A program made the position numbers and the translations under genes. A model generated the notes under the pieces. It was given only the letters and a program-made list of their open reading frames with translations. It was not told the DNA's origin and searched no databases. This document shows positions 85-27,044 of a stretch of DNA of 64,000 bases, in pieces. Every line of letters starts with the position of its first letter. The stretch's first letter is position 1. Source of the DNA: Wenyingzhuangia sp. 2_MG-2023 (GTDB taxonomy: Bacteria > Bacteroidota > Bacteroidia > Flavobacteriales > Flavobacteriaceae); NCBI RefSeq assembly GCF_030548295.1, contig NZ_JAUOSB010000005.1, positions 62,001-126,000 of the forward strand, in the 5' to 3' direction.

Positions 85-1941
85 TTACCATCCTGGATTT
101 TGTTGATAGTTAGACAAATCAAACACGTCATTTGACGATACTGGATACCAGTAGTTTCTCTTATCAAAAACACGTTGTTCCGTAGTTAGGTCAATGTAGT
201 TGTAAGTAAAGGTCAATGTGCTTTTATCAGTAACACTACCATGACCTGCTGGTGGAATAGCTTCTACACCTCTAATTGGTTTTTTGAACACTTCTTCTGC
301 AATCATCCACCTTCTTAAGTCATGCCATCTGTGGTTCTCCCACATTAACTCCACAGCTCTTTCGTTTCTAATTCTATCTCTAAATACTACTTTGCTTGTT
401 GCAAACTCAGGTAATACATCTGGCATATCTACTCTATTTCTCACTTTATTAATTGCTTGTACCGCTGTTAGACCATATCCTTTAGGATCTGCATTGGGTC
501 CATATGCCTCGTTCATAGCCTCTGCATAATCTAAATACACTTGGGCAACTCTTATGTATATTGTATTTATGTTGTATATATCAAATTGAAACGGAAAGTT
601 TTGTGCTTCTGGCCATAAGTATTTTTTTATCATATATCCAGACAACATTCTATTTTTAGTATACCTACTATTACTTTGTAAATTATAATCTGTTCCATCT
701 ACATATAGTTCTTGGTACATTTTAGTTCCATTTTGAGCTATTCCCCATTCCTCACCAGGAATAATTATGTTATTTTCCAACCTTGGATCTCTGTTTTCAA
801 AGGGGTTTTGAGAATCATAACCTGATCTTGAATCATCAATAGGGTATGCGTTAGTTCCATCAAAGGTTTCATACATATCTACAATATTCTGAGTTGGGTT
901 TGTGTAAGCTGCTGCATCATTCCCTGTCCCTCTTGACATACGTTGAGGAATATAATTACATCTTAACCCTCTAGATTGACTAGATCTTTTTCCTGCATCC
1001 AATCGGTACCAAACAGACTCTGGAGATGCTTGGATTCCATCTGTATAAAATATGTTCTTATATTCTGCTTTTGTCATCAATCTAAAACCAGCTCCACCTG
1101 AACCTGCGTCAATGTATTTTATCAAGTCGTTTGCATATTCTGCTGCCATTTCTGACCATTCTGTACTGTAGTCAAGATCCTCTATTGAATTTAAATCATT
1201 TTGCATTAAAGGACTTGCAGCATACAATGTTGCCATAGATTTTACAGCCATTGCTGCTCCTTTAGTTACTCTACCAAATTGACTAGTTTCCCAAACATCT
1301 GGCAACATAGGAATGGCTTTGTCTAGATCTGTTAACATCCACTCAGTGCTTTCTTTATAAGTAAGTCTGCTTAAATTTGTATTGTCATCCGAAGCAAAAG
1401 CATTGTCTAAAATAGGCATACCTCCTGCTCTTTGAATGATTTGAAAATAGTACCATGCTCTAAAAAAGTAAGCTTGTCCTAACAATTCATTTCTTTGATC
1501 TTCTGTTAAACTTGGCACTATACCACTTTCTATATTCTCAATTACTTTATTGGCAACTCTAATAGCAAATGTAGCATTGGTAAACACGCTTCCTTGGTCA
1601 AAGCCAGAATTTCCTCCCCATCCAAGTTCTGGAACACCTGCCCATCTATTTGTCCAAGCTCCAGAATTTAAAACGGTAGCTATATTTCCATTATAAGGAC
1701 TTCCTGCCTCATCTGAAAGTGCATTTACAGAAGTTCTATCAAATCCTTGAGAACGCCAGTGGTGAATATCTAATAACACCTCGTAACAATTATCTAAATA
1801 CCCTCTAACCGACTGGTAACTTGAAAAAACATCTTCTTCCGCCAATCCAAAATCTGGATTTACATCTAAAAAATCTTCACATGATGACAGACTTATAAAA
1901 GTCAACATCATTACTATTGTTTTATAAAATTTTGTTTTCAT
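85..1941 (-). CDS. SusD/RagB-family glycan-binding outer-membrane lipoprotein
   Basis: This is the surface glycan-binding partner that caps a SusC transporter and hands oligosaccharides to it. The 618-residue length is typical of the family. It begins with a lipoprotein signal peptide whose lipobox (SLSSC) puts the acylated cysteine at residue 21, followed by the EDFLDVNPD stretch common just after the lipidated Cys of SusD proteins. The C-terminal half contains the RNERAVELMWENHRWHDLRRW segment that is a hallmark of RagB/SusD, and the protein ends in NPGW. It lies 13 bases downstream of susC on the same strand and is surely co-transcribed with it. Its ligand cannot be read from sequence; the neighbouring sulfatases suggest a sulfated glycan. 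Confidence 0.97.
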   Translation of the reverse strand: MKTKFYKTIVMMLTFISLSSCEDFLDVNPDFGLAEEDVFSSYQSVRGYLDNCYEVLLDIHHWRSQGFDRTSVNALSDEAGSPYNGNIATVLNSGAWTNRWAGVPELGWGGNSGFDQGSVFTNATFAIRVANKVIENIESGIVPSLTEDQRNELLGQAYFFRAWYYFQIIQRAGGMPILDNAFASDDNTNLSRLTYKESTEWMLTDLDKAIPMLPDVWETSQFGRVTKGAAMAVKSMATLYAASPLMQNDLNSIEDLDYSTEWSEMAAEYANDLIKYIDAGSGGAGFRLMTKAEYKNIFYTDGIQASPESVWYRLDAGKRSSQSRGLRCNYIPQRMSRGTGNDAAAYTNPTQNIVDMYETFDGTNAYPIDDSRSGYDSQNPFENRDPRLENNIIIPGEEWGIAQNGTKMYQELYVDGTDYNLQSNSRYTKNRMLSGYMIKKYLWPEAQNFPFQFDIYNINTIYIRVAQVYLDYAEAMNEAYGPNADPKGYGLTAVQAINKVRNRVDMPDVLPEFATSKVVFRDRIRNERAVELMWENHRWHDLRRWMIAEEVFKKPIRGVEAIPPAGHGSVTDKSTLTFTYNYIDLTTEQRVFDKRNYWYPVSSNDVFDLSNYQQNPGW

Positions 1942-1954
1942 ATCTTAATCTATA

Positions 1955-4900
1955 TTAAAATGAGACTCTTACTCCTAAACTATATCTTCTTATAATTGGA
2001 TAACTACCCGTTCCGTTGCTTTCTGGATCTAATTGATCTGGTAGCCTAGACCATGTATATAAATTATTTCCGTTTGCATAAACTTGTGCAGATTTCAGTC
2101 CTAATTTCTTAACCAATCCTTTAGTGAACCTATAACTTATCTCTGCACTTTTTAATCTCACATAAGATCCATCTGCATAGGTTAAAGTGCTGCTTTGCTT
2201 ACTATGTGCATAGTCATTCAAGTGCAACACTGGTTTTGTTGCTGTTGCAGCTGTTTCAGGTGTCCATCTATTAAGTACATCAGGATTTGACTGAATGTAA
2301 TTACTCATGTCATCATAATAATATAAGTTAGGAATGATGTATCCTGTGTTTGAAACACCGTAAAACCTTGCTGATAATGATAAGTTTTTATACCCTACAT
2401 TCAATCCTAAGTTGTACGTGTTTAATGGAAATTTAATTGTTTTGTCCATTGCAACAAGATCTTCATTTGTTATTTGACCATCTCCATTATAATCAACATA
2501 AGAAACATCTCCTGGAAGCAAACTAGTTTGTGCTACTCCTAAACTTGGTGTTGCTCCATTGTAAAGGTCATCTAAGCTATCATAAAAACCAGCATCTAAA
2601 TATCTTTGACCTCCTGAACTATTCCACCCGATTGGTTTTCCTGCTTGTTTTAAATAATCAACCTGTCCAGATGGATCATTTCTAAAAACAATTCTGTTTT
2701 CAGAAAAGGCTGTATTAAAATCAACTCCATAGGATAAGTTTTTTGTTATCTTATCTTTCCATCCTATTTGGAATTCATAACCACGCTTTTTGGTTTCTCC
2801 TAAATTTCCCGTAGGAGGATTTACTACTCCTGTAAATGACTGTTGTCTAACATCCATTAAAATATCTGTTCTACTTTCTTTGTACAAATCTAGACCTAAT
2901 GTTAATTTTTTAAAGGCCTCAAATTTAACCGTTAAGTTGTGTACACGACTTGTTTCCCATCCTACGCTTTCGTTGGCAAGAGATCCTTCTACATACCTAG
3001 GTCCGTAACCTGTTAGAGCATCATATCCAAAGTTTACGTTACCTCCTGTATTGTATATTTGAACATATTGAAAACGATCTTGGTCATTGTTAGGAAATTC
3101 ATTTCCATCCGCACCTGTTATACCATATGAATAATTTATTTTTAACAAGTCTAACCAATTTCCAGCAATTTTTTTCACAAAAGATTCTTCGGAAGCTACC
3201 CATCCTAAACCAACAGAAGGGAAAAACCCAAATCTATTTTTAGGAGAAAATTTTTCAGATCCAGAATAAGAACCGTTCAATTCTAGTAAATAACGTTTTT
3301 TATAGTAGTAGTTTATACGACCGATCCACTCTTCTCTTTTGGCTGAGTATTTATTTCTAGTATTGGTGATTTGTCTTGTCATAATCGCATTGGTCTTTAC
3401 TGTATGATCTCCAAAAGCACGATTATAATCAAACTGAAACTTATAATTTAACCTTCTTTGGTAAGAGAACAAGCTTGGGTTTGTAGCAACTACAGCAGTT
3501 CCTTGAGATTGATCGTTTGGAAACCTAACTTCTGATATAAGAGGATAAGTTACAGTACCATCATCTGCCACTATTGGATTTGCATAATCGTAATTTCTAA
3601 AATACCTTATGATTCCCACATTTGCAGAACCTAAACCTACTCTTAAGATTCTTTCTTCGTAACTAGATTGAGAAGAATAGTTAATACTTCCTTTAAAACT
3701 CAGTCCTTTGGTGATAAAATCTAAACCTTGTGTTAATTGAGCATCATAAAAACCTTGAAAGTATTTGTAAGTTCTAACCCCTCCTTCATTCAAAGCCATA
3801 AGAAGATTGGCTTCACCATTAGAGCTATCTCCATAACCATCTTCATATCTAATAGGAAATAGATTTCTAGGAGAGCTATAAAGAAGTCCAAAGAATTGAG
3901 ATTGTCCAAAACCATCTTCTCCATTTCCATCTATACGATATCCTGGTTGCGTTCTTACTCTATAGTTTCCTGAAAAATTCACACTGAATTTTGTACTAGG
4001 TGTAACATCAAAGTCTAAATTTGTTCTCCAATTGTATTTTTTTAAATTAAAAGCAGGATCATATTCATCTTGTGGAGTTGTTTTAAAAATATCTCCATCG
4101 TTTCTGTGCCCTAAGGAAACAAAGTAACGTACCAATCTTGACCCCCCACTCATGTTTAAATTATACGTTTGTTCGTATCCAATTCCTACCACTTCATCCG
4201 TCCAGTCTACTTCTGGGAAATAAATGTTATTCGGCCCTCTTTGGTCATAGTTTTGCGTCCATGCATCAATGGTAGATTGAGGAATTAATTGCCCCCATAA
4301 CCCTTCATTAGTAGCAGCTTCATTGTACATTTTTTGAGACGTAATATAATCTGAGTATTCTGGTTTTGCTGTAGGATCTTTAAAACCAAAATTAGATGTA
4401 AAGTTAAATTGAGGTTTACCCAATTTACCTCTTTTGGTCGTAATTAAAATTACCCCATTCGCACCTCTTACTCCATAAACTGCAGTTGCAGATGCATCTT
4501 TTAATACAGAAATAGTTTCTATTTCGTTGGGGTCAATATTGTTGATATCACGTTGAATCCCATCTACCAATGTAAGAGGACCTGTCTCATTCCACGAAGA
4601 TTTTCCTCTTAAATAAATGTCGGCAGCATCAGATCCTGGTTTTCCGTTAGTATTTATAACTGTTAACCCAGGCAAAACTCCTTGCAACCCTTCAGAAATG
4701 GTACTTACAGAACCAACTTTTTGCAATTCTTCTCCCTTTACAGATTCTACCGCTCCAACAAGTGTTTGTTTTGTTTGAGTTCCAAAACCAACAATTACAA
4801 CTTCTTCTAAATTTGTGGAGTCTAATTCTAATTTAACTTTTATTATAGAAGAGTCGGTTACGTTTTGAATAACTTGTGTTTTGTAACCTACATAACTAAT

Positions 4901-5206
4901 TTCTATGTTTGAATTGTAATCTACTTCCAAACTAAAGTTTCCATCAAAATCTGCCACACTCCCCTTAGAAGTATTTTGCTGTAATATTGTTGCCCCCAAC
5001 AACGGAATATTATTTTCATCAACAATATTTCCTTTCGCCATAACTTTTTTTGGAGTCTGAGCATATATCTCATTCTCACCAAATATTGATAGTGATATAC
5101 AGATTAAAATTGCACACAATATCGACTGAAAAGTCTTTTCAGGTATTTTCATTGTTTTCATCAAAAAACAAATCAGCTTTCTTTTATTATTCGTTTTCAT
5201 GTTCAT
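1955..5206 (-). CDS. SusC/RagA-family TonB-dependent outer-membrane transporter
   Basis: This 1083-residue protein imports oligosaccharides across the outer membrane using TonB energy. After an unusually long N-terminal region with a hydrophobic signal segment (about residues 28-50) comes a carboxypeptidase-regulatory-like beta domain (about 57-135), then the SusC plug with the GFGTQTKQTLVGAVESV-type TonB-box/plug start and the DPNEIETISVLKDASATAVY signature. A long beta-barrel follows, ending in an aromatic residue (VRVSF). Start choice: the ATG at 5206 gives the full signal; a second Met two codons later is equally possible. A candidate HTCS operator (5299-5314) lies 92 bases upstream. The susD gene follows after 13 bases. 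Family assignment is secure; the substrate is inferred only. Confidence 0.97.
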   Translation of the reverse strand: MNMKTNNKRKLICFLMKTMKIPEKTFQSILCAILICISLSIFGENEIYAQTPKKVMAKGNIVDENNIPLLGATILQQNTSKGSVADFDGNFSLEVDYNSNIEISYVGYKTQVIQNVTDSSIIKVKLELDSTNLEEVVIVGFGTQTKQTLVGAVESVKGEELQKVGSVSTISEGLQGVLPGLTVINTNGKPGSDAADIYLRGKSSWNETGPLTLVDGIQRDINNIDPNEIETISVLKDASATAVYGVRGANGVILITTKRGKLGKPQFNFTSNFGFKDPTAKPEYSDYITSQKMYNEAATNEGLWGQLIPQSTIDAWTQNYDQRGPNNIYFPEVDWTDEVVGIGYEQTYNLNMSGGSRLVRYFVSLGHRNDGDIFKTTPQDEYDPAFNLKKYNWRTNLDFDVTPSTKFSVNFSGNYRVRTQPGYRIDGNGEDGFGQSQFFGLLYSSPRNLFPIRYEDGYGDSSNGEANLLMALNEGGVRTYKYFQGFYDAQLTQGLDFITKGLSFKGSINYSSQSSYEERILRVGLGSANVGIIRYFRNYDYANPIVADDGTVTYPLISEVRFPNDQSQGTAVVATNPSLFSYQRRLNYKFQFDYNRAFGDHTVKTNAIMTRQITNTRNKYSAKREEWIGRINYYYKKRYLLELNGSYSGSEKFSPKNRFGFFPSVGLGWVASEESFVKKIAGNWLDLLKINYSYGITGADGNEFPNNDQDRFQYVQIYNTGGNVNFGYDALTGYGPRYVEGSLANESVGWETSRVHNLTVKFEAFKKLTLGLDLYKESRTDILMDVRQQSFTGVVNPPTGNLGETKKRGYEFQIGWKDKITKNLSYGVDFNTAFSENRIVFRNDPSGQVDYLKQAGKPIGWNSSGGQRYLDAGFYDSLDDLYNGATPSLGVAQTSLLPGDVSYVDYNGDGQITNEDLVAMDKTIKFPLNTYNLGLNVGYKNLSLSARFYGVSNTGYIIPNLYYYDDMSNYIQSNPDVLNRWTPETAATATKPVLHLNDYAHSKQSSTLTYADGSYVRLKSAEISYRFTKGLVKKLGLKSAQVYANGNNLYTWSRLPDQLDPESNGTGSYPIIRRYSLGVRVSF

Positions 5207-5389: not shown

Positions 5390-7549
5390 TTATCGATTGC
5401 TTTTTAGCACTTTTAAAGTTGAGTTAATTCTTTTTGAATTTAATTTTAAGAAATATAAGCCCTTATTTACATTACTAATATTTATCTCCATTTTATAATT
5501 TAAGTCTCCTTGTAAAACAACCTGTCCATTAGAATTGATCAAAGAGTATGATAATTTTTCTTTTATAAAATCATCATCTATAACAAGGTGAATTTTTTCA
5601 TCTAAAACAGGGTTTGAAGAAACTCTAACGCTTGTATTATTGTTTATTTGTTTGCTAAAAAGAAGCTCATCACTTTGATTGGTATAAATACAAATACTTT
5701 TCGCTTTAAGGTCTGTAACAAATGTATTTGTATTTCCTTTTTTAATTATTACTTCAGCTCCTTCATCATTATTATCATTAGTCCATGTAATTTGTTTTAT
5801 ATCATCATCTAACTGAAAATTATTGAAATTAACAGGAATATTGTTTATGTCATCTTCACTATTATTAACAATAACTACTGTAAAATCATTTTCTTTAACA
5901 AATGCCATGCTGTGTACCTCTTCAAGTAGTGAAGTAGTACTTTCTACATATTTTTTCCCTACAACTCCATTAGCAAAATATTTCATTATATAATAACTTC
6001 GAAGCCTTTTTCCCTCTGTATTATTTTTAAAGTAAATAGCTCTAGTCTCAGAGTTTACACCTCTAGAGTTTACTTCAAAAAAACACTCTCCAACTAGCCC
6101 TCCTTTATACAGTACTGTTTTATCAATATACGTGTTTATTGCCAAGCTAATATCCGGGTTCACACCTGAAGTTCTTGACCCTCCTCCTGCAGAAGATTCA
6201 TCATTCCATGTTTTTTTACCTACTGATGTAGCTGCTAATGCAAAATCGTCATATAATTCTGATTGATTGTTTAAGTTATGTGATGAAAAAGAATGGTACT
6301 CATTTTGATATCCTTCCGTTTCAACATCTTCTATATAACTTACACCTTGTGATAATGACCAGGAAGCTGGACCTATAATTTCAGGAATGGGAATTCCTCT
6401 GTCAGCGCATTCTAATTTCATTTTTTCGTAAGCTACATGAGACCTTAAAGGTGTTACCACACTTGTCCATTCTTTTGCTGTTGCCAAATAATCTATAGTT
6501 ACTCCATTATTATGCATTAACTCTAAGTAGTCTGCCAAAAAAACTCCATAAGAATTTGCATTAAAAGATTTGTTTCCTATAGTTTTGATACAGTTACCTG
6601 CATCGTTAGTTTCTACACATGAATACTGATAGATATACTCTGGTAAGTTATTCCAATTACCACTTTTGTACCCATGGTAATCTGAGCGCATAGTTGCTAA
6701 AAACTTAACATTTGAATTTGTAGATTTTATAGCTTGCATTGTTTTAATAGCATTGTTATAAAATGCCATATTCTCTACAACCTCGTCTATATCTGTGTAA
6801 CGTAATCTTTTATCAAACCCTTTGTTATCAATAAAAACAATACTATTTGAATTGTTTTTTAGAGATAATTTCCATAGTGAATTCTCATCATTCTCGTTTA
6901 TTGTATTTACATCTACAGCCTTAACAAACAAACCTGTATTTGCAGATGGATCGGAAGTACATTGTAAATACTTGTTTTGTCCTACACTACGAATATTGTA
7001 ATAACCTGGATAGTTTTCATTTTCAGTCAACTCCCATTTGCACCAACTCCCTCCACAAGATCTAGCTGGTCTAGAAAAAACTCTATTCCCAGTATCATCG
7101 TCAGTTTTATCACTAGTACTTTGTAAATTTGTATTTGATGCGATATTTTGAATAAAATAAGTTCCATTCCCATTTTCACCTTCCCCAAAAGACCATTCTA
7201 CTATTTCTTCAGTAGCACCATTTCTTAATTGCCATTGTACATAAGTTCCTGAAGCACCAATGTTATTAGCCTCTATTTCATACTTCTCATTTTCAGTTTT
7301 CTGAATTTTATCGTACGCAACTCTTGCCAAGTTAAAATTAACATCTCTAAAAACCCAATCTATAATTTCATTAGTATTGGTTGCGTTTTGAACAAAATTT
7401 TGAGACCGTTCAAAATCCGCTCCCATAAATTCAATTTCTTGTTTTAGATTTCCAGCTTCAACAGTAATACTTTGGGAGTATACCACAACACAAACAAACA
7501 TAGAAAAGACAAATACGGTTAATTTTTCTAATTTAAATCTACATTTCAT
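5390..7549 (-). CDS. Secreted clan GH-A (GH30-like) glycosidase with inserted beta-trefoil module and T9SS domain
   Basis: This 719-residue protein is a probable glycan-cleaving enzyme. It has a signal peptide (about residues 1-25), the start of a TIM barrel (28-90), a segment (about 95-230) with three repeats built around QWQL, KWELTE and LWKLSL plus YYNIRSVGQNKYLQCTSD that looks like a ricin-type beta-trefoil (CBM13-like), the rest of the barrel, a beta-sandwich, and a C-terminal type IX secretion sorting domain (about 640-719). Likely catalytic acids are Glu360 (ATAKEW) and Glu451 (TWNDES). The barrel aligns with the lipoprotein at 10529-11878 around YLELM-x6-IDYL-x4-E and RGIPIPEIIGP, so the two are paralogues. 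GH30 is the nearest family I recognise, but a distinct family is possible. The gene stands apart from its neighbours (183 and 314 bases). Confidence 0.75.
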   Translation of the reverse strand: MKCRFKLEKLTVFVFSMFVCVVVYSQSITVEAGNLKQEIEFMGADFERSQNFVQNATNTNEIIDWVFRDVNFNLARVAYDKIQKTENEKYEIEANNIGASGTYVQWQLRNGATEEIVEWSFGEGENGNGTYFIQNIASNTNLQSTSDKTDDDTGNRVFSRPARSCGGSWCKWELTENENYPGYYNIRSVGQNKYLQCTSDPSANTGLFVKAVDVNTINENDENSLWKLSLKNNSNSIVFIDNKGFDKRLRYTDIDEVVENMAFYNNAIKTMQAIKSTNSNVKFLATMRSDYHGYKSGNWNNLPEYIYQYSCVETNDAGNCIKTIGNKSFNANSYGVFLADYLELMHNNGVTIDYLATAKEWTSVVTPLRSHVAYEKMKLECADRGIPIPEIIGPASWSLSQGVSYIEDVETEGYQNEYHSFSSHNLNNQSELYDDFALAATSVGKKTWNDESSAGGGSRTSGVNPDISLAINTYIDKTVLYKGGLVGECFFEVNSRGVNSETRAIYFKNNTEGKRLRSYYIMKYFANGVVGKKYVESTTSLLEEVHSMAFVKENDFTVVIVNNSEDDINNIPVNFNNFQLDDDIKQITWTNDNNDEGAEVIIKKGNTNTFVTDLKAKSICIYTNQSDELLFSKQINNNTSVRVSSNPVLDEKIHLVIDDDFIKEKLSYSLINSNGQVVLQGDLNYKMEINISNVNKGLYFLKLNSKRINSTLKVLKSNR

Positions 7550-7863: not shown

Positions 7864-10452
7864 TTAATCTGTAACAATGGTTTTGTTAGGCAATTTACTA
7901 TAGATGGTTTTTCCGTTTGTTTTCATATAGGCTTTGATAGCATATTTTGATTTTTTTGTCAACTCTGAATTAGAAATAAAAACCTCAAATGTTTTATCTT
8001 TTTTAGACAAATCACTTCCCTCAACCAATTGTTCTTCAACAGTTAAATAAGATATATTTTCTATTTTAAGTCCGTAAGAGTATTCCCCATCAAGCAAAAC
8101 CTTGTTATAAGATACATAAAATAAATATCCATCATTTTTCTTTTCTACCTTGTTAATTTTTACTGAAGATGTTTCTTTAACATCAATTAACGTAGCTGTA
8201 TTTGGATAAAAATTACTTTCTCCTGCTGATGTTTCTGCTTTTGCAGTGTAATAATATATTTTTTCTTTCACAGCTGTGGAATCTACATAACTAGACATTT
8301 TTATACCCTCTGCAATTTTGCTATAATGATGAAGTTTTTCTCCTCTATAAATATTATAAGTAGTTTCTGGATGAACATCTTTTTGTGTAATCCATTTTAC
8401 CATAACATTTCCTTCTTGATTTCTAACTGCCGATACATTTCTAGGACTCAAAGGCACTTTGTTTGACAACACCAAAGTAACTGGTTCTGAAAATTCACCA
8501 ACACCTATACCATTATATGCTGCAACTGAAAATTGATAAGCAACATTATAATCTAAGCCCTCTACTCTGTATCCATAAACATTATTAACATCAATAATGT
8601 TCTCTTCTCTTGTTTTAGTACTAACATACTTCAACTTATACGCACTTACATTGGCAACACTTTTCCAAAAAATAGTAGCTGTATTATTCCTTCTTGATGT
8701 TTTAAAAATCTTAGGACTATTAGGTGTAGCTATCTTCAATTTTATGTAATTTGAATAACCACTTTCTCCCTTTTTATTCTTAGCTAGCATTTTAAAATAA
8801 TACTCCTCTCCTTTTTCTAAATCAGAAACCTCAACAAAATTTCCTTTTTTAACCTTTAATTTATGGTTTAATGCATTAAGAGATTTCCCATAGTATACAA
8901 TGTAATTATCTGCATTCTCTATAGTTCCCCATGTTAATTTTATTCCCGATTTATTTATTTCTCCTTTATAAATAGTTGGAGTTGCAGGCTTTGCTATTTC
9001 TTTAGATTTCCACTTTGCAACTGTTACACTATAAGCAGGTATGTTTATACTTCCCTTTTTATATACTTTATTTTTAATTTCTGTATTGTGTACCTGTAAT
9101 GAATCAGCGTGAATAAATTGAGTTTCTATTTTTTTGTTTAATGGCTCTCCATCTATATTAATTTTAAAATCTTTAGATTGATTTGTTCTGTTGGTAAAAA
9201 CCAAATAATCATAACCATTAATACCTCTGTAAGCTTGTGAGTAAAAAGCTACTTCCGTAGTATTTTTCATTCCAGGAGCATTAAATCCACTAGTTACAGA
9301 TGACTTAAAAACAAAATCAGAATTATTGGTTGCGTTATGAAAAATTTCATAAGCTTTTCCTTCTAAGGTCTTTTTTATTCCAGTTAGAATACTATCTGTA
9401 TTTAGAGTTGTAGCATTTTGATAAGCTTGTTCAATTTGCTTATTGATATTCCTTTTAGGTTGAAATTTACTGCTTATTTCATGTGCTCCCACATACCATG
9501 TGTTGGTATGTTGCAACTGTCTCATTACGTATTCAATATTATAAATGCTTGAATAAATTCCATTTAAAGGAGTATTCCACACACCAAACTCAGTTATTAC
9601 CATAGGAACATTTTCCCATGTATAATCTTCTATCTCTTGCATTGCTTGAGGAGAAGTAGCTTGCAATAGTTTTGTGTTTCCTCTTTTATAAGCTTTCTCT
9701 AAAGATTCTTTTTTTCCTGTATGGGGTGCGTAAGAATGCTTAGAAAACACATTCCAATAAGCTCCATGTTCTTTTTGATAGGTATTGATTTCTTTCATAA
9801 ATCCCCAAATACCATCCCAAGTGCAATTTAAAGCTAAATATGCTTCAGGAAAAACTTCTCTAATAGCATCTGCATGAGGTTTCATTTTAGCAGCATAATC
9901 ATACCCATTGTTCCACCAATACACCTCTCTATGAGGCACATAAAAATAAGGCTCATTACAGAATTGCCATGTGGCAACTTCAATATTATTATTCTTACAA
10001 AAACGAGCTAACTCTTTGGTCATTTCTGGAGTTTCGGAAAAACCATTGACAGTTATAATTAGTTTCCCATTAATTTCACTTAATAAATCATACAAATCAA
10101 TTATACGATGTGGTCCTTTTACTTCTGTAAACCTATACCCCTTTAAGTATTGTTCAGAATGGTTGAACATCATTGCATAATCAATATCATATTGACCTGT
10201 TGCACTACTAAAGGCATCACCCATGGTACCTGAAAAATAACGAAGCCAACCTGGCTTTAGCTGATGAACTGCTTCTCTAAAATCTGGATGCGTGTAATTC
10301 CAACTTTTATCAGCTATACGCACATTAAATCCGCTTGACCCAACTTTAATTGAATGTCCTTTTTGAGTATCAATATTAATGATTCCTGTTTTTTGTTGAG
10401 CAAAGCAAGAAATTGATAGTAAAAGCAAGAAAAAATATTTCAAAAAATTCAT
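7864..10452 (-). CDS. Secreted clan GH-A glycosidase-like protein with three fibronectin type III domains
   Basis: This 862-residue protein is a probable exported glycosidase. A signal peptide (about 1-19) precedes a TIM-barrel domain (25-370) in which Glu167 (QFCNEPYF) fits the clan GH-A acid/base position NEP and Glu288 (MVITEFGVW) fits the nucleophile. A small beta-domain (about 370-490) follows, then three fibronectin type III domains (about 495-580, 582-670 and 672-770) and a C-terminal beta-domain of about 95 residues. I cannot place it in a named GH family; GH39, GH79 and GH51-like folds share this architecture. It follows the sulfatase and GH30-like lipoprotein genes on the same strand, 76 bases downstream of the latter, with a hairpin between. 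No T9SS domain is visible. Confidence 0.72.
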   Translation of the reverse strand: MNFLKYFFLLLLSISCFAQQKTGIINIDTQKGHSIKVGSSGFNVRIADKSWNYTHPDFREAVHQLKPGWLRYFSGTMGDAFSSATGQYDIDYAMMFNHSEQYLKGYRFTEVKGPHRIIDLYDLLSEINGKLIITVNGFSETPEMTKELARFCKNNNIEVATWQFCNEPYFYVPHREVYWWNNGYDYAAKMKPHADAIREVFPEAYLALNCTWDGIWGFMKEINTYQKEHGAYWNVFSKHSYAPHTGKKESLEKAYKRGNTKLLQATSPQAMQEIEDYTWENVPMVITEFGVWNTPLNGIYSSIYNIEYVMRQLQHTNTWYVGAHEISSKFQPKRNINKQIEQAYQNATTLNTDSILTGIKKTLEGKAYEIFHNATNNSDFVFKSSVTSGFNAPGMKNTTEVAFYSQAYRGINGYDYLVFTNRTNQSKDFKINIDGEPLNKKIETQFIHADSLQVHNTEIKNKVYKKGSINIPAYSVTVAKWKSKEIAKPATPTIYKGEINKSGIKLTWGTIENADNYIVYYGKSLNALNHKLKVKKGNFVEVSDLEKGEEYYFKMLAKNKKGESGYSNYIKLKIATPNSPKIFKTSRRNNTATIFWKSVANVSAYKLKYVSTKTREENIIDVNNVYGYRVEGLDYNVAYQFSVAAYNGIGVGEFSEPVTLVLSNKVPLSPRNVSAVRNQEGNVMVKWITQKDVHPETTYNIYRGEKLHHYSKIAEGIKMSSYVDSTAVKEKIYYYTAKAETSAGESNFYPNTATLIDVKETSSVKINKVEKKNDGYLFYVSYNKVLLDGEYSYGLKIENISYLTVEEQLVEGSDLSKKDKTFEVFISNSELTKKSKYAIKAYMKTNGKTIYSKLPNKTIVTD

Positions 10453-10528: not shown

Positions 10529-11878
10529 TTATTTTATTTTAAACGTAAATCGTGAAATCGATCTTTCTGGTAACGTAAACATAAAAATATTATCCTCTTC
10601 TCCTTCAACATCAATTAACTTTTCTGTTCCTGTAACCACTCCACCATCTGTCCAATGTATAGTTCTTACTCCTCCATCTATACTAGCATCCTTTACTTGA
10701 AAAGTATAATCATCCCTTACAGTTGTATTCATATTTACTGCAAAAACTGTTATTGTTTTGTCTTCTATAAAAGCACGTGTTTGCAGTTTTCCTAAATCTG
10801 TTATGTCCTCTCCATCAATATCCGTTACCTGTATTGGTCTTGCTCCTAAAAGAGGTACAGATATAGCACGAATTAAATGTTTTCTTACATTACTAGCATT
10901 GTAATTTAAATCCCACCACATAAATCCTGTCATTCCAACATCTATCTGATCCCACAAGGCTACTATACCTTGTTCCGCTTCGTCAAAATCATTTACAGTT
11001 CCTTTGGTATCCCAATGAGGTTCTGTTGACCAAAAAGGCATATTTCCTACCAAATCTAAATCTTTTACAAGGTTAGCTTTAGGTCTGTATTTGGGATAGT
11101 AATGAGTTCCATAAATTTCCATAGTATCTCCCCATCCGTTTTCAAACAAGGTTTTCACCCATTTATTTTTATTCGGACCAAAATCCTCATAACCGACAAG
11201 AACAGGTATATCAAAATCTCTTTCTATTGCTAAAGACCTTAATTCAGCAATTGTTTCTGCATACTTTTGTGGAGTAATATTTCCTTCGTTGTATACATAT
11301 TCATTATCTATTCCTAAATAATCAATTTTAACATTTTTAGATTTCATAAACTCTAAAAAATCTGCAACTAAAATGGCATATTTTTCTGGTATAATACCAT
11401 CGTCTCCCTTAACCCAATCTGGAAAAGATCCTTGTCCTTCTAATTTTTTACTAGCAAAAACATAAGTATCATCGTTACCTCTAACCGCTTTTGCTAAATT
11501 GATAGACGTAATAAATCTTTCATAAACAGCTTCATCTACAACTCCTTCACTAGGATGTGCATTATCTTTATCTGTTCCTAAAATAGAAACTCTTAAGCCA
11601 TTAAGACCATCTTCCTTAAATATAGTATAAGCAGTTGTTGCATTTGTTGTATTTCTTGCTGCGTACTTAACATCATAGAAAAATACATCAATTAACTTTC
11701 CTGGATTTTCAAAAGAAATTACACTGTGAATTGTTGCTGGATCAAATTCTTCTGAATCAGTTATCTGATCTGAATCTGGCTCTACAGTATCTATCGACGA
11801 ATTGTCATCAGCACAAGCAATGGCTTGAAACAACAATACTACAATGACTATTTTTTTGAAGATGATGTTATTAATCAT
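10529..11878 (-). CDS. GH30-like clan GH-A glycosidase lipoprotein
   Basis: This 449-residue lipoprotein (lipobox FQAIAC, Cys22) is followed by an Asp/Ser/Glu-rich linker (about 23-46) and a TIM barrel plus beta-sandwich. Glu193 in LGIDNEY is the likely acid/base and Glu286 in FWSTEPHW the likely nucleophile, 93 residues apart. Segments ADFLEFMKSKNVKIDYL and ERDFDIPVLVGYEDFGP match the 719-residue protein at 5390-7549, showing common ancestry without the trefoil insertion or T9SS tail. Surface anchoring suggests action on glycan close to SusC/SusD. Its start codon overlaps the sulfatase stop (ATGATTAA, 8 bases), so the two are likely translationally coupled. The exact GH family is uncertain. 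Confidence 0.78.
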   Translation of the reverse strand: MINNIIFKKIVIVVLLFQAIACADDNSSIDTVEPDSDQITDSEEFDPATIHSVISFENPGKLIDVFFYDVKYAARNTTNATTAYTIFKEDGLNGLRVSILGTDKDNAHPSEGVVDEAVYERFITSINLAKAVRGNDDTYVFASKKLEGQGSFPDWVKGDDGIIPEKYAILVADFLEFMKSKNVKIDYLGIDNEYVYNEGNITPQKYAETIAELRSLAIERDFDIPVLVGYEDFGPNKNKWVKTLFENGWGDTMEIYGTHYYPKYRPKANLVKDLDLVGNMPFWSTEPHWDTKGTVNDFDEAEQGIVALWDQIDVGMTGFMWWDLNYNASNVRKHLIRAISVPLLGARPIQVTDIDGEDITDLGKLQTRAFIEDKTITVFAVNMNTTVRDDYTFQVKDASIDGGVRTIHWTDGGVVTGTEKLIDVEGEEDNIFMFTLPERSISRFTFKIK

Positions 11879-13352
11879 GACCTAAAAATGTTTCTTGACT
11901 AAATGTAAATACATCTGAAGAAGTTCTAGCACTGTCTAAAATAGCTTGCATTTTTGAAACAATATCAGGATGTTCACTAGCTATGTTATTTTGTTCTCCT
12001 ATATCATTAGACAAATCATACAATTCTAATGGAGCTTTCGGATTTTTTAAAACATTGTATTTAACTGCTTTCCAATTGTCCATTCTTACCGCTTGACGAC
12101 CTCCTTTTTCATGAAACTCCCAATACAAATATTTGTGTTTTTTCTGATTTTGAGCTTCACCCAATAGCTCAGGTAAAAATGAAATTCCATCAGTATTATT
12201 AGGAACCTCAATTCCTACAATATCAGAAAATGTTGGAAACACATCCCAGAATGCAGAAACATGGTCTGATATACTACCTTCTTTTATTTTCCCTGGCCAT
12301 TTGATAATCATAGGAACTCTAATTCCACCTTCATACAAATCTCTTTTAAATCCTTTAAGAGCTCCATTGCTGTTAAAATATTTAGGATCTGCTCCTCCTT
12401 CTTTGTGGGGGCCATTGTCTGATGTAAAAATAACTATGGTATTGTCTGCAATTCCAAGCTCCTCAACCTTATCCATAATTTCACCTACTTGCTGATCTAA
12501 CAAATCAACCATCGCTGCAAAAGCTGCATGAGATTCGTCTTGAGACTGGTATGCTCCATTATTTAGTTCAGCTGGATTGTTAGATCCTTTGTATTTCTTT
12601 TCTGGTAAAAATTTATTTCTATACTTATTTATAAGCTCCTCTGGTGCTGCCAATTCTGCATGAGGAATTATAGATGCTACGTAAGCAAAAAACGGCTTGT
12701 CTTTATTTTCTTCTATAAATTGAATTGTTTTATTATGAATCACTGTAGGAGCATACACTCCATTTGCAAAATTCTCATTCTCTTTTATACCGATAGAATC
12801 TCTATTGAACCATAAATGATCTGGAAAATATTTATGCCCTAAACGCTGACAATTGTATCCAAAAAAAGTATCAAAACCTTGATTTACAGGATCTCCTTCA
12901 GACCCAGGAAAACCAAGTCCCCATTTCCCAAAAGCCCCTGTGGTATAACCCGCTTTTTTCATAGCTTCTGCTAAAGTGTATGTATTGTCTGGTATTGGAT
13001 ATTGTCCTTCTGGCTGAATTTCTTTATTCCCCCTTACAACAGTGTGGCCTGTATGCATTCCCGTAAGCAATGCTGACCTTGAAGGGGCACAAACAGTACT
13101 TCCTGAATAATGCTGTGTAAACAACATTCCTTGTGATGCAAGCTTGTCTATATTAGGTGTTTTAAAATTCTGCTGCCCGTATGAACTTAAATCACCATAA
13201 CCTAAATCATCAGCTAAAATGTAAATAATATTTGGCTTATCTACATGATTAGAAACTAACGGCTCTCCTTTACTTTTTTTACTTGTAGAATTACATGATA
13301 TCAAAAGCGTTACCAGCAATAGAACAAAATAATGAATTGAATGTTTTATCAT
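11871..13352 (-). CDS. S1-family (formylglycine-dependent) sulfatase lipoprotein
   Basis: This enzyme hydrolyses sulfate esters, probably from an algal polysaccharide. It is 493 residues long with a lipobox (LLISC, Cys20). The metal-binding pair Asp48-Asp49 lies in ILADDLGYGD, and the active-site signature CAPSRSALLTG starts at Cys88, the residue expected to become formylglycine. A second metal-binding motif SDNGPH is present, as is the typical GKWGLG segment. It is the first gene of a cluster reading into the GH30-like lipoprotein (8-base overlap). The 333-base region upstream is shared with the divergent HTCS gene and has several ATGTTGC elements. The S1 subfamily, and so the sulfate position attacked, cannot be fixed by eye. 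Maturation needs a formylglycine-generating enzyme encoded elsewhere. Confidence 0.95.
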   Translation of the reverse strand: MIKHSIHYFVLLLVTLLISCNSTSKKSKGEPLVSNHVDKPNIIYILADDLGYGDLSSYGQQNFKTPNIDKLASQGMLFTQHYSGSTVCAPSRSALLTGMHTGHTVVRGNKEIQPEGQYPIPDNTYTLAEAMKKAGYTTGAFGKWGLGFPGSEGDPVNQGFDTFFGYNCQRLGHKYFPDHLWFNRDSIGIKENENFANGVYAPTVIHNKTIQFIEENKDKPFFAYVASIIPHAELAAPEELINKYRNKFLPEKKYKGSNNPAELNNGAYQSQDESHAAFAAMVDLLDQQVGEIMDKVEELGIADNTIVIFTSDNGPHKEGGADPKYFNSNGALKGFKRDLYEGGIRVPMIIKWPGKIKEGSISDHVSAFWDVFPTFSDIVGIEVPNNTDGISFLPELLGEAQNQKKHKYLYWEFHEKGGRQAVRMDNWKAVKYNVLKNPKAPLELYDLSNDIGEQNNIASEHPDIVSKMQAILDSARTSSDVFTFSQETFLGHD

Positions 13353-13685: not shown

Positions 13686-16600
13686 GTGCGAAACATAATT
13701 ACACCATTGCTTAAGCAAATAACTATTTTTATCTTATTTTTAAACATCTCTTCTGTTCTTTCACAATCAAAAGAATCGTCTTTTCATGAGCTAAATACTC
13801 AAGGTACTATATTCAATAAAAAAGTAAATACACTGTATGAAGATAGTATTGGTTTTTTATGGATTGGAACACAAACGGGACTATATAGATATGATGGAAA
13901 TAATTTAGTAGTATTTCAAAACAATGTTTTTGATCCTTACTCTATACCTAATAACAGTATAAATTCTATCATAGAAGATGATGATAAAAATTTATGGATT
14001 GGAAGTGAAAGCTTTTTAATATTTTACAATCGTAAGTTAAATAGGTTTACAGGGTTTTATAAAAACGCAACATCAATAGTTTTACAAAAAACATCCGATG
14101 GAAGTATTTGGGTCAACTCTAAAAACTCTGAGTTGATTATAATTAGTCCTAAAACTAAATTCACAAAAGTTGACTCTACATCTCATTTTAACTATAATAA
14201 CAACCAAAGTATTATTCAACTTGATACTCAAATAAATTGTTTTGTTGAAGATAGTTTTAATAGATTTTGGGTAGGTACCAACAAAGGAATAGCATTATTA
14301 GATGAATCTAACAAACACATTAAAAGTAATTTTAATCACCAAATTAAAGGATTAAAAAACATAGAAAACAATCGATTTATTGCGTTGACGAACAATGGCA
14401 TATACCTATTAAGCTATAATAAAGCTAACGCTACTCTTGAAACTCTTGAATCTTATCCAAACATTTTAAAACCATTTAAAAAACAAGGATTATTAACTTC
14501 TTTAGCACAAACATCAACACATAATAATTTGTGGATTGGAACTACCAATGGACTTATAAAAGCCGTAAGGAAAAACCATCAATATACTTTTTTATATCAT
14601 TCCGAAGAAAACTTAAGAACCAATCATATCAACTCTACAATATTTGATTCTTATGGAAATTTGTGGATTGGCTCTAACAAAGGTATTAACAAACACATCA
14701 GCAGAACCTCTCTTTTTGATTTTCAGCATGTCAATAAATTTTCAAACAAAGAAGTATCAAACACAAATAGTCTTCTTTTTTACTCTGAAAACAATGTACT
14801 TATTGGAACTAGTAATGGATTGTACAAGTACAATTCTAAAAAAAAGAATGCTCACGAAGTTCAACTTATTACAAATTCAAAAATCAATGGCATTAATAAC
14901 TTAACGCTTAATTATGATAAAACTGAGCTTTTACTAAGCAGTGAACACCGCTTATTTAAGTCTGTTAACTACAACCCAACTGACAATAAAATACATCTAC
15001 AAGAAATTGGAAAATACAACAGACTAATAACTGATATTGCACCTATCAATAAAAATGAAGTATGGATTGGTTTGTGGAATGGAGGAATAGATATTCTTAA
15101 CAACAAATCTCCTCTTTCTGAGTTTAAGAAAAAAGTATTAAAAAAACTCTCTAAAAATCATACTTCTGTTTTTTTATTAACTAGTGATTATCAATTATGG
15201 ATTGGTACTCGTGGTGAAGGTTTATTTAAAATTGATTTTAATACTGAAACGCTAGAGGAGTTTTTACCAAATAAAGACGGACTGTCTTCTAATGCTATTT
15301 TAAGTTTGTACGAAGATCGTCATAAAAACATATGGGTGGGTACAAGAGGTGGTGGTTTGAATCTTTATCTTGAAGAAAAAAATAGCTTTAAAAACTTTAA
15401 CAACTCTAGAGGATTGGTTCCAAACACTATTATTGCTCTTGAAGAAGATAATAAGGGACACATATGGATGAGTACACAAGATGGTATTACTCGTTTTGAT
15501 GTTGCAAATGAAAAATTCATCCCTTTTGGAGTAGAAGATGGCATACATGAAATTCATTTCACCTACAAATCTAGCTCATCTAGCAAAAATAAAAAATCTC
15601 TGTATTTTGGTAACAAAGAGGGTTTTTATAATGTAAGTCCCAACACATTTTCACAAAAAAATAAGACTCCAGCTACCATTATCACAAACTTTTCTATTCT
15701 GAGTGATTCTAAAAACAATACGTCAAACTCTTTTCAAAATCACTCAACCTCAATCAACATCAACTCAGAGCAACCAATTGTTTTGCCTTATGATCAAAAC
15801 AATATAGTGGTCAATTTTTCATCTCTAGACTTAACTACTCCAAACAAAAATGAGTATGCTTATAAATTAGAGGGATTAAACAATTATTGGATTTATACCA
15901 CCGCTTATAACAGAAATGCAAATTACAACGACCTTGCTCCAGGATCTTACACTTTTAAAGTAAAAAGTTCTAATAGCGATGGTGTTTGGAATGAAAATCC
16001 AACTGTATTAAAATTTAAAATCACACCTCCTTTTTGGAGAAGTACATTGGCTCATATTATTTATGCATTGATTTATACTACCCTAATTTTAATAGGATAT
16101 TTTCTAATTAACCGATGGTACAACCTTAAAAAAAACCTAGTAGCTGAAACTATTAGTAGAGAAAAAGACAATGAGCATAACAGAATGAAAATGATTTTTT
16201 TCACAGATATTTCACACGAATTGCGCACTCCTTTGTCTCTAATTTTAGGAACTATTGAAAAAGTTGTTAAAGAAAAAAATTTCTCCTTAAGTCCACTCAC
16301 TGCCCAACGTATTTACAACAATACACTTAGAATGCATAGACTTATCAATCAGATAATGGACATTCGTAAGTTTGATGTAGGTAAATTTAATTTAAGTGTA
16401 TCTAAAAATGACATTGTTAAAGATGTTAGCATCATTAAAGATAGTTTTAATGATTTTGCAAGAATTTACGAAATTGACTATAATTTTATCTCTAAAGAAG
16501 AAAAAATTAGAGGTTGGTACGATGTAGATATATTAGAAAAAACACTCTTTAATTTGTTATCTAATGCTTTTAAATACACCAAAGAAAAAGGAGCTATTAG

Positions 16601-17813
16601 TGTTACTTTAGAAATTGCAAATGCAGAAGATACTAAAACAACAACTCTTGATTTAGAAAAAAACAACTATATCAAATGTGCTGTTAGAGATAATGGTATG
16701 GGAATTCCTAAAAAAGATTTAGCATTTATTTTTGACCGTTATTATCAAGCAACTAAATCACACACCAATCAAATACCCGGTACTGGAGTCGGGATGGAAC
16801 TTGTTCACAAATTGATAGAAAGACACCATGGTATTATTTGTGTTGAAAGTGAAGAAAATATCTTTACAGAATTCACTTTTTACCTACCTATTAATAAAGA
16901 TAAGTATCCTAAAAACGAACTTTTAAAAACAAGCATCCCTCTAAAACGAAATTTTATAGAAAACTCTGAATTCCAGGTAATTGAAGAAGTATCCAGCGAA
17001 TTTGAATCAAAACAGAATTCAAAAAAATCAATAAAACCAACTGTTTTACTTGTAGAAGACAATGAAGATTTAAGACGTATGGTTAAGGATGAATTAATTT
17101 CTGATTTTCATATCATTGAAGCTCCTAACGGTAAAGAAGGTTACGACCTTATTTTAAAAGAGAAACCATTGCTAATTATTAGCGATATTTTAATGCCTAT
17201 AGAAGACGGAATATCTATGTTGCAACGCATTAAAGACAATAAGGAGATTAGCAATATTCCTATCTTTATGCTAACTGCAAAAAACTCGGACGACACTAAA
17301 ATTAAATGTTTAAGCCTTGGTGCTGATGATTATATTGAAAAACCTTTTAGTTTAGAATTTGTGAAATGGAAGGTGAAAAATGCTCTAGGAACTAGAAAAG
17401 AACTTAAAGAAAAATACAGTAAGATTATTACTCCTGAACCTTCTAAAATTGAAATTGATTCTAACGATGAAAAATTCATCAAAAAACTCATTAAAATTAT
17501 TGAAGAATCTATGACCGATAATTTATTAAGTGTTGAGTATTTAGCTTCTGAAGTAGGAATGAGTAGAGCTAATTTGTATAGAAAACTTCAAGCTATTGTT
17601 AACGACACTCCTGTTAATTTTATCAAAAAAATAAAACTAAAAAGAGCAGCGCAATTGTTAAAACAAAACAACATGTATATTTCTGAAGTAGCTTATATGA
17701 CAGGATTTAACAATCAAAAATATTTTGGTAAATGTTTTCAAAAAGAATACAAAATGAGCCCAACAGAATACATTAAGAAGCATGCAGAACAGTTAGACAG
17801 CAATAATGATTAA
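13686..17813 (+). CDS. Hybrid two-component system regulator (HTCS) of the PUL
   Basis: This 1375-residue one-protein signalling system senses a glycan breakdown product in the periplasm and activates PUL transcription. In order: signal peptide/membrane anchor (about 1-27), a double-propeller sensor with Reg_prop repeats (LWIGTQTGLYRYDG, NLWIGTTNGLIKAV, NIWVGTRGGGLNLY and others), a Y_Y_Y domain (about 690-775), one transmembrane helix (about 785-805), a histidine kinase with His844 in DISHELRTPLS, an ATPase domain with DNGMGIP, a receiver domain with Asp1167 (IISDILMP), and an AraC-type HTH domain (about 1265-1372). The start is GTG: an in-frame TGA at 13671 leaves GTG at 13686 as the first usable start. 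It is the only regulator in the locus, divergent from the sulfatase gene. Confidence 0.96.
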   Translation: MRNIITPLLKQITIFILFLNISSVLSQSKESSFHELNTQGTIFNKKVNTLYEDSIGFLWIGTQTGLYRYDGNNLVVFQNNVFDPYSIPNNSINSIIEDDDKNLWIGSESFLIFYNRKLNRFTGFYKNATSIVLQKTSDGSIWVNSKNSELIIISPKTKFTKVDSTSHFNYNNNQSIIQLDTQINCFVEDSFNRFWVGTNKGIALLDESNKHIKSNFNHQIKGLKNIENNRFIALTNNGIYLLSYNKANATLETLESYPNILKPFKKQGLLTSLAQTSTHNNLWIGTTNGLIKAVRKNHQYTFLYHSEENLRTNHINSTIFDSYGNLWIGSNKGINKHISRTSLFDFQHVNKFSNKEVSNTNSLLFYSENNVLIGTSNGLYKYNSKKKNAHEVQLITNSKINGINNLTLNYDKTELLLSSEHRLFKSVNYNPTDNKIHLQEIGKYNRLITDIAPINKNEVWIGLWNGGIDILNNKSPLSEFKKKVLKKLSKNHTSVFLLTSDYQLWIGTRGEGLFKIDFNTETLEEFLPNKDGLSSNAILSLYEDRHKNIWVGTRGGGLNLYLEEKNSFKNFNNSRGLVPNTIIALEEDNKGHIWMSTQDGITRFDVANEKFIPFGVEDGIHEIHFTYKSSSSSKNKKSLYFGNKEGFYNVSPNTFSQKNKTPATIITNFSILSDSKNNTSNSFQNHSTSININSEQPIVLPYDQNNIVVNFSSLDLTTPNKNEYAYKLEGLNNYWIYTTAYNRNANYNDLAPGSYTFKVKSSNSDGVWNENPTVLKFKITPPFWRSTLAHIIYALIYTTLILIGYFLINRWYNLKKNLVAETISREKDNEHNRMKMIFFTDISHELRTPLSLILGTIEKVVKEKNFSLSPLTAQRIYNNTLRMHRLINQIMDIRKFDVGKFNLSVSKNDIVKDVSIIKDSFNDFARIYEIDYNFISKEEKIRGWYDVDILEKTLFNLLSNAFKYTKEKGAISVTLEIANAEDTKTTTLDLEKNNYIKCAVRDNGMGIPKKDLAFIFDRYYQATKSHTNQIPGTGVGMELVHKLIERHHGIICVESEENIFTEFTFYLPINKDKYPKNELLKTSIPLKRNFIENSEFQVIEEVSSEFESKQNSKKSIKPTVLLVEDNEDLRRMVKDELISDFHIIEAPNGKEGYDLILKEKPLLIISDILMPIEDGISMLQRIKDNKEISNIPIFMLTAKNSDDTKIKCLSLGADDYIEKPFSLEFVKWKVKNALGTRKELKEKYSKIITPEPSKIEIDSNDEKFIKKLIKIIEESMTDNLLSVEYLASEVGMSRANLYRKLQAIVNDTPVNFIKKIKLKRAAQLLKQNNMYISEVAYMTGFNNQKYFGKCFQKEYKMSPTEYIKKHAEQLDSNND

Positions 17814-20900: not shown

Positions 20901-20989
20901 TTAAACACAATAGTTTCTCTTTGAGAGAAACTATTGTTAGAACATAGAAGAATAAAAAATAAATAGGTAACAATTAATTTATACTTCAT
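17942..20989 (-). CDS. Secreted GH2-family glycosidase with C-terminal carbohydrate-binding region
   Basis: This 1015-residue protein is probably an exo-acting beta-galactosidase or related GH2 enzyme. A signal peptide (about 1-23) precedes the GH2 sugar-binding (about 27-180), immunoglobulin-like (180-295) and TIM-barrel domains. Glu417 in IYSVGNETRG is the acid/base, and Glu477 in FVSTEAPH is the likely nucleophile; this differs from the CEYAH motif of LacZ-type enzymes. Downstream are beta domains, a YYTLDGTQPS segment typical of a chitobiase-type C-terminal domain (about 835-870), and a terminal CBM6/35-like jelly roll (about 910-1015). It is the last gene of a four-gene cluster (27005 to 17942), 31 bases after the sulfatase. 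Linkage specificity is unknown. Confidence 0.9.
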   Translation of the reverse strand: MKYKLIVTYLFFILLCSNNSFSQRETIVFNKNWKFILQDNPEFSKPNTNTSTWNSIQIPHDWAFEEGISKDGAQGASGGYFGGGIGWYQKTFEASKNWENKLVSIEFDGVYMNSEVWVNGHYLEKRPYGYISFRYEISKFLTTGKNIIAVRVDNSKEPSARWYHPCGIYAPVHLVVTNQQYIKPNGVYVSTPEIKKDFALVNVKTSLGNKSSLKSKGTLETLILDIEGNIVAQKKQKYKDRKSDLELETELKIETPELWSLENPYLYKVVSRLVIKNKIIDEVTINLGVRSIAWKTETGFWLNGKITKLLGVSEHYEGGPLGGAWTEPLLRWKLGLLKDMGVNAIRTAHNPAPPMFYDLCDELGILVMDEIFDGWSKKAKEDYGKQAFDTWWKRDMTEWLLRNRNHPSIIIYSVGNETRGKIGKELVALCHELDAEKPVTSGHSSSEYMDVYGVNGGSEKMDFFNKPRPNKPFVSTEAPHTWQTRGYYRTKTWFRDGYPNKGQQPFELPDLTEKEVFTYEWASSDKWTNGKQHFNSSYDNAMVRISARKNWELMRDLPWFSGHFRWTGYDYYGEAGYVHGGWPFRLFMGGALDVAGFKKDLFYFYQSQWTKEPMAHILPHWTHPTLEKGVEIPVWVYSNCEEVELFLNGRSLGRDKPGTKWDEMQCEWMVPWETGELVVKGYVDGKEVVMSKQTTASTPSAIQLDLEKKYTNTATDKVAIVTANLVDTKNVFYPYGENKIYYHLEGDVVLLSLENGDPVDVTKNVNIYEKKAFMGATRAFLRVSENAKKALITTGAILGEKQLLTSEKVSIDVKTLNFLDTEKQEAYAIYYTLDGTQPSIKSTKYKSSFEVGLGTTVKAIVVKQGKIILTMEETFAADLGLYWKANENTTSAINTNGMLAVNADVKGAKKISNQGQRYVDFKGNEGKVSWYQENDGSAGSFILKFKYASNDTKLRPMELFVNNKSTGIIEFKSTGSWNSKWGEIEVEKKLEAGANYIELKTVGKSGPNILMLIVE

Positions 20990-23804: not shown

Positions 23805-27044
<3,240 letters not shown>

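Follow-up and report, generated by a model that had tools for sequence, protein, structure and literature searches.

What kind of enzyme is encoded at 7864..10452 on the minus strand, and on which polysaccharide would it act? The window, i.e., the whole stretch of 64,000 nucleotides that was analysed, carries here a protein (hereafter the orphan) in which a preliminary description had recognised the NEP and ITEFG motifs of clan GH-A retaining glycosidases, three consecutive FN3 domains and a distinct C-terminal beta domain, and whose barrel it could assign to no family. The gene is laid out as follows.

7864..10452, minus strand: whole gene, predicted orphan clan GH-A glycosidase with three FN3 domains (862 aa, ATG start)
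10399..10452, minus strand: signal peptide, residues 1-18 (simple type by eye; hydrophobic core; Cys16 without a good or conserved lipobox)
9001..10398, minus strand: catalytic (beta/alpha)8 barrel and beta-sandwich, residues 19-484 (AlphaFold models; GH51 and GH79 folds nearest)
9952..9954, minus strand: codon of Glu167 (NEP), predicted acid/base after strand 4 (invariant in 16/16; aligned with the Glu of NEL in the distant relative P0001)
9589..9591, minus strand: codon of Glu288 (ITEFG), predicted nucleophile at strand 7 (invariant in 16/16; in model strand 266-272)
8734..8991, minus strand: FN3 domain 1, residues ~488-573, with the lowest conservation among the FN3 domains (Pfam, AlphaFold model, alignment)
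8464..8733, minus strand: FN3 domain 2, residues ~574-663 (Pfam, AlphaFold model, alignment)
8194..8463, minus strand: FN3 domain 3, residues ~664-753 (AlphaFold model; third fn3 stretch by Pfam in homologue L022)
7867..8181, minus strand: C-terminal beta domain, residues ~758-862 (AlphaFold model)

Domain layout and catalytic acids

The C-terminal half of the ORF matches the Pfam fn3 model (E 4e-14) in two passing stretches, the homologue L022 has three such stretches, and the AlphaFold model shows three beta-sandwich units in a row with a further beta domain behind them, which bears out both the FN3 array and the separate C-terminal domain of the preliminary description. For the latter domain a YscW match was seen in homologue L022 only, and below threshold (21.1 bits vs. 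a cut-off of 22.6).

The catalytic domain alone was modelled from 12 sequences (mean pLDDT 68.9, with low-confidence stretches in the barrel) and the mature protein from 16 sequences (mean pLDDT 81.6, pTM 0.81), the full model having pLDDT <50 at 29-31, 58-67, 80-95, 152-160, 224-229 and 273-277, some of which adjoin the catalytic acids. In both models a (beta/alpha)8 barrel precedes a beta-sandwich, and the barrel carries the Glu of NEP immediately past strand 4 and that of TEFG at strand 7; the three FN3-like units and the last beta domain are additionally present in the full model only. When Foldseek was run with the full model, eukaryotic FN3 proteins came out on top.

In the full model (model residue + 18 = full-length number), Glu167 follows directly on strand 141-147 (strand 4) and Glu288 lies within strand 266-272 (strand 7). 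Since both motifs occupy the catalytic-acid sites of a modelled GH-A barrel, their occurrence is more than chance. Retaining enzymes of clan GH-A work by double displacement, with the Glu of the strand-4 NE as the acid/base and the strand-7 Glu as the nucleophile. With the barrel and the catalytic Glu pair at the expected strands, the orphan is, as modelled, a member of clan GH-A, and by analogy it would be a retaining enzyme with Glu167 as acid/base and Glu288 as nucleophile.

An alignment of 16 sequences (the window protein and 15 homologues that are 45-84% identical to it; L016 and L017 were left out as duplicates of L008 and L012 at 100% identity, and L003 and L004, 94% identical, count as near-duplicates) leaves both residues invariant in 16/16. 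The two acids had thus been correctly named as GH-A residues, and their loss in close relatives, which had been put forward as a ground for rejecting the assignment, is seen in none of the 15 homologues. The barrel has a mean pairwise identity of 78% and 136 invariant positions out of 316, vs. 13/121 in the sandwich, 7/86, 14/90 and 15/90 in FN3 domains 1, 2 and 3, and 8/105 in the C-terminal domain; the mean pairwise identity of FN3-2 (57%) and FN3-3 (59%) is above that of FN3-1 (42%). A catalytically dead, GH-derived protein that merely binds glycans would agree with the family having kept its three FN3 domains and the additional beta domain, but with both acids invariant and the sandwich and FN3 domains varying more than the barrel we regard it as very improbable, and the pseudo-enzyme was set aside as unlikely on the conservation of the catalytic acids and of the barrel.

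Fold and family placement

In VIA-align comparisons the domain model met the GH79 beta-glucuronidase 7psj first (Z 28.1, rmsd 3.5, 376 aligned), with the GH51 structure 6d25 at Z 26.9 (rmsd 3.3, 393 aligned), while the full model met GH51 first (6zt9, Z 24.0, rmsd 3.2, 406 aligned), with GH79 7psk at Z 21.6 (rmsd 3.5, 387 aligned), GH44 2eqd at Z 18.1 (rmsd 3.5, 376 aligned) and GH30 7n6h at Z 17.5 (rmsd 3.6, 366 aligned). We take the best 50 structure matches of each model to be enzymes of clan GH-A families. Identity over the structural alignments was 10-16% for all matches listed (11-16% for GH51 and GH79). Because GH79 comes first for one model and GH51 for the other, structure prefers neither of them, and no structure of the more recently named GH-A families stood out in the fold searches, which excludes nothing. 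The comparison with GH51, GH79 and GH30 that had been proposed for this protein therefore bears out the clan GH-A fold, with GH51 and GH79 nearest, and fixes no family: the modelled fold settles the clan, not the family.

The sequence searches agree with the earlier remark that the barrel fits no known family, as no clear match was obtained in Pfam, NCBIfam or the PDB sequences; a clear match to a characterised family, the other stated ground for rejecting the assignment, did not turn up in these searches. NCBIfam matches nothing in the catalytic half up to E 1, and the catalytic region of 12 members, searched against Pfam to E 10, gave scattered sub-threshold matches only, the best being the GH42 C-terminal domain (E 0.065, one member of 12). 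PF00150 (GH5) appeared at E 0.7 in 1/12 members and reached 21.1 bits vs. a cut-off of 23.5 in L022; the Pfam models of GH51, GH79, GH39 (PF01229) and GH30 matched none of the 12 members scanned. A PDB profile search with the 12-sequence domain alignment returned meaningless matches only (best E 0.3). The word unplaced thus means outside Pfam, NCBIfam and the PDB sequences, the CAZy HMMs lying beyond that comparison. Among the open-access literature matches listed, no title or beginning of an abstract describes such a protein.

Single-sequence phmmer against PDB sequences gave as its best match 2bfg, which we take to be a GH39-type xylosidase (E 0.58, residues 153-315), with 1w91 at E 0.64, both spanning the two motifs. 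This weak match is what the orphan shares with GH39 beta-xylosidases, and it differs from them in the lack of any Pfam GH39 match (12 members) and in the hhalign comparison of the orphan profile with 10 GH39 proteins (8.8%). The same comparison gave 1.0% for 14 GH51 proteins, which is below the sulfatase control (5.1%), 0.6-0.7% for the two GH59-like neighbour groups described below and 0.1% for a GH29 control. Since hhalign also missed a clan-level kinship (GH51 vs. GH39, 2.5%), these values speak to family-level closeness only; by profile comparison of sequences, the orphan is in neither GH51 nor GH39.

A very divergent enzyme of GH51 or GH79 type (alpha-L-arabinofuranosidase or beta-glucuronidase) that trims the side chains of a sulfated polysaccharide has to be considered here, as these are the nearest folds of both models. 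GH51 alpha-L-arabinofuranosidases (6zt9, 6d25) have the same barrel and beta-sandwich and include the top match of the full model, and GH79 beta-glucuronidase/heparanase (7psj, 5bwi) has the same fold and includes the top match of the domain model. A bridging protein also speaks for GH51, namely P0001, an uncharacterised 526-aa protein of genome G227 (L031:9932-11509). It is a distant catalytic relative of the orphan (E 4e-4, 23% over 203 residues) in which the Glu of NEL aligns with Glu167, but it has no FN3 match, carries an LRYPGGT motif and matches Glyco_hydro_cc below threshold only; as a single sequence it gives a profile match of 88% with GH51 and 47% with the orphan. However, the structural alignments reach just 11-14% identity for GH51 and 13-16% for GH79, neither family has a Pfam match in the 12 members, the hhalign value for GH51 is under that of the control, the GH51 C-terminal model matches nothing in the window's genome, and the orphan has an FN3 tail and a sulfatase-bearing locus. 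The GH79 model PF03662 matched 0/247 genomes and 0/14 controls and is hence mute on absence. In our opinion this alternative is unlikely. The scores of P0001 suggest that the orphan may be an outlying branch near GH51-like proteins, and we would class it as a branch of clan GH-A at the family level, so far uncatalogued and located in a sulfated-polysaccharide locus.

Locus, relatives and sulfatases

The genes around the orphan are the following.

85..5206, minus strand: SusD and SusC pair (named by eye from sequence; pairs recur in other loci)
5390..7549, minus strand: protein akin to the GH59-like neighbour, with a RicinB domain and a T9SS tail (Pfam/NCBIfam)
10529..11878, minus strand: GH59-like protein (GH-A-like), probable lipoprotein by eye (PF02057 E 2.5e-4, below cut-off)
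11871..13352, minus strand: sulfatase S1_A, nearest to S1_20-type Gal/GalNAc-3-sulfatases (Pfam, PDB sequence matches)
13686..17813, plus strand: hybrid two-component regulator, HTCS-type (by eye; similar genes in other neighbourhoods)
17942-20989, minus strand: GH2 (NCBIfam GalA and GalB are the best models, below their cut-offs)
21021-22526, minus strand: sulfatase S1_B
22589-23707, minus strand: GH29
23805-27005, minus strand: GH2 (by eye from sequence)

On the minus strand the order is GH2 (23805), GH29, S1_B, GH2 (17942), S1_A, GH59-like gene, orphan, 5390-7549 protein, SusC and SusD. In the same-genus genome G383 it is GH2, GH29, sulfatase, GH2, HTCS, sulfatase, enzyme and SusCD x2, i.e., the order of the window without both GH59-like genes.

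A scan of genome contigs found 11 loci with homologues, carried by two Flavivirga, two Mariniflexile, two Flavobacterium, one Lutibacter and one Cellulophaga, together with MAGs of Allomuricauda, Croceivirga and Fulvivirga. Matches were obtained in 7/397 genomes of a family-level survey (a count that takes in the window's genome and one weak match), in 2/395 of a phylum-level survey (own included) and in 1/199 of a survey of the family of G564, this one being G564 itself; with so few matching genomes, the orphan protein is rare.

Fourteen other neighbourhoods were compared with the window proteins by blastp, spanning up to 10 kb per side for L003-L013 (less downstream in L013) and ~20 kb for G383, G121 and G564, with L018 left out. 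An orthologue of S1_A (63-81% identity) lies near the enzyme in 10 of these 14, and in eight of the ten it lies immediately upstream of the enzyme gene, on the same strand, at a distance of 3-181 bases or with the two ORFs overlapping; L007 resembles the window in having a GH59-like gene between the two, and in G564 S1_A is on the opposite strand. L003, L004 and L008 have no S1_A orthologue and carry other sulfatases; a sulfatase of any kind is present in 13/14 neighbourhoods, the exception being L013 (17 kb covered). Sulfatases are common in the window's genome (81 matches in 3.98 Mb), and therefore a nearby sulfatase alone is weak evidence. In genome G564, a single ORF of 1322 residues encodes an S1 sulfatase followed by the enzyme (L022), a natural fusion that represents a direct, testable tie between desulfation and hydrolysis; the sulfatase domain of L022 is closer to another sulfatase of these loci (38%, fragment L027:18417-19901) than to S1_A (31%).

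The remaining genes vary. A GH2 type is found in 8/14 other neighbourhoods (at least 40% identical to a window GH2 in six) and a GH29 type in 3/14, and other loci contain GH97, GH43, GH28, GH29 and GH128-like genes, GH128 being presumably the family of these Glyco_hydro_cc entries.

Substrate, location and proposed role

The nearest PDB sequences of S1_A are 7ana (E 1.8e-124) and 7an1/7oqd (2.5e-119), which we assume to be BT1636 and BT1622, and a His aligned in S1_A and in both nearest solved sulfatases is presumably the O4-recognising His of S1_20. A paper on S1_20 sulfatases pictures 7OQD (PMC13383068), and according to a review the B. theta S1_20 enzymes have 3-O-sulfated Gal or GalNAc as substrates and read the axial O4 through a His (PMC10154612). 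S1_B is nearest to a mucin-desulfating sulfatase, its fourth match being an exo-L-galactose-6-sulfatase. The GH2 at 17942 has a candidate GH2 beta-glycosidase as its closest match, followed by beta-galactosidases. Aldose epimerases occur in two loci (L007, L010), and in L005 and L010 there are genes that we take to be galactokinase-like from an N-terminal motif. Taken together, the clues from S1_A, S1_B, GH2, the galactokinase-like genes and the epimerases favour a sulfated polysaccharide containing galactose, which is probably the substrate of the locus, and the GH29, GH97, GH43, GH28 and GH128-like genes of other loci mean that the polymer may carry other sugars; these genes would suit a more complex or fucose-rich polymer equally well.

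Two narrower substrates were dropped. No GH16, GH86 or GH117 model matched among the scanned proteins, which cover part of each locus (six from the window; other batches of 10, 10 with one from the window, 10 and 8), and this disfavours agar or porphyran as the sole substrate; in the same proteins no GH127 or GH129 model matched, and kappa/iota-carrageenan was set aside.

NEP-bearing enzymes of clan GH-A usually cut equatorial beta-bonds, and this habit is one of the points against a fucose-rich, fucoidan-like sulfated polysaccharide in place of a galactan. GH29, GH97 and GH28 do stand beside the enzyme in some loci, genes of these kinds are also listed in a description of a flavobacterial locus connected with ulvan and fucoidan (PMC8072126), and one carrier is named Mariniflexile fucanivorans. 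However, GH29-type genes are present in three of the 14 neighbourhoods only, a blastp comparison with the window proteins shows no such gene in G121, which yet has two GH2 types, S1_A and SusCD x2, and S1_A resembles galactose/GalNAc-3-sulfatases. A fucose-rich substrate consequently seems doubtful to us.

As to the location, the preliminary description had remarked that FN3 arrays in this position often keep enzymes at the surface or present them to a polymer. Surface display by the FN3 array was abandoned here, as Pfam finds no T9SS sorting domain in the orphan (the neighbour at 5390-7549 has one) and no conserved lipobox is visible by eye: the Cys after SIS in the window protein forms a poor, unconserved one, and a good one (LVSC) occurs only in the fusion homologue L022. 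The N-termini of 15/16 proteins look like simple signal peptides by eye, and with the T9SS tail absent, the periplasm is, judged from these sequences, a more likely place for the enzyme than the surface. In the periplasm the FN3 array would not be a surface anchor, and the FN3 and C-terminal beta domains are probably spacer, oligomerisation or glycan-holding modules.

With modest confidence we lean towards a clan GH-A glycoside hydrolase of the retaining type that belongs to none of the families tested, would act on sulfated oligosaccharides and perhaps cuts beta-galactosides. A simple signal peptide would export it, probably to the periplasm, where SusC/D would bring in the sulfated oligosaccharides. 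Glu167 would serve as proton donor to the leaving group, the covalent glycosyl-enzyme intermediate would form on Glu288, and the partners would be a 3-O-(galactose)-sulfatase, the GH2 enzymes and, in some loci, GH29. In this picture the ORF, its domains, the conserved motifs, the modelled fold, the gene context and the fusion are observed, and the retaining mechanism, the location, the substrate and the role of the FN3 domains are inferred. The bond most likely cut would be a beta-galactoside in a sulfated galactan or a galactose-rich sulfated polysaccharide, a call made from the neighbours only, which vary between loci. To hypothesize further, the orphan could be the first member of a new clan GH-A family, namely a sulfate-tolerant beta-galactosidase or galactanase of the periplasm working in step with (in one lineage, fused to) a carbohydrate sulfatase in a largely uncatalogued sulfated-galactan pathway; we find this conceivable, although we would not yet call it probable. 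If true, clan GH-A gains a family, and the orphan may fill a gap among the enzymes for a sulfated polysaccharide that contains galactose.

The 5390-7549 protein matches the group of the GH59-like neighbour in profile at 99.5%, and the catalytic parts of both have no match among PDB sequences (for the 10529 gene, to E 1). With these two further poorly classified GH-A-like proteins, the locus could offer a direct way into a polysaccharide pathway that is not yet described. Together with the orphan, three poorly classified proteins of GH-A type stand side by side in the window.

Distant relatives of the orphan and its sulfatase fusion

The orphan, the predicted clan GH-A glycosidase with three FN3 domains, was bridged to GH51 in profile comparison by one distant catalytic relative from genome G227:

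L031:9932-11509, P0001, uncharacterised, 526 aa

The gene cluster of P0001 contains sulfatases, GH92 and an ADP-ribosylglycohydrolase-type gene. In another genome, G564, a single ORF of 1322 residues (L022:55-4020) joins an S1 sulfatase to an orphan-type GH-A/FN3 protein as a natural fusion, at the start of which a lipobox-like LVSC is present.

GH-A-like neighbours in the window

The orphan's neighbours encode two additional GH-A-like proteins:

5390-7549, reverse strand
10529-11878, reverse strand

One of the pair gave a sub-threshold GH59 match in Pfam, for the other a catalytic Pfam match was not found, and a PDB search with the catalytic parts of both returned no match. The groups of the two proteins showed a mutual profile match of 99.5%.

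Glyco_hydro_cc, esterase-like and repeat-like proteins

Near the orphan's locus, T9SS-tailed Glyco_hydro_cc (GH128-like) proteins are encoded that have weak FIVAR matches:

L004:3043-5217
L006:5857-8031
L005:14994-16541
L023:1051-3189

Some of these genes are adjoined, in L004 and L008, by ORFs alike in length and N-terminus. Two proteins are encoded close to each other in the downstream portion of the window's locus:

L023:4998-7937, T9SS-tailed protein of 980 aa with an esterase-like (BD-FAE) domain
L023:12601-14094, SASA-type esterase

Judged by eye, the window ORF at 29106-31907 (933 aa) looks like a BNR/sortilin-type repeat protein.
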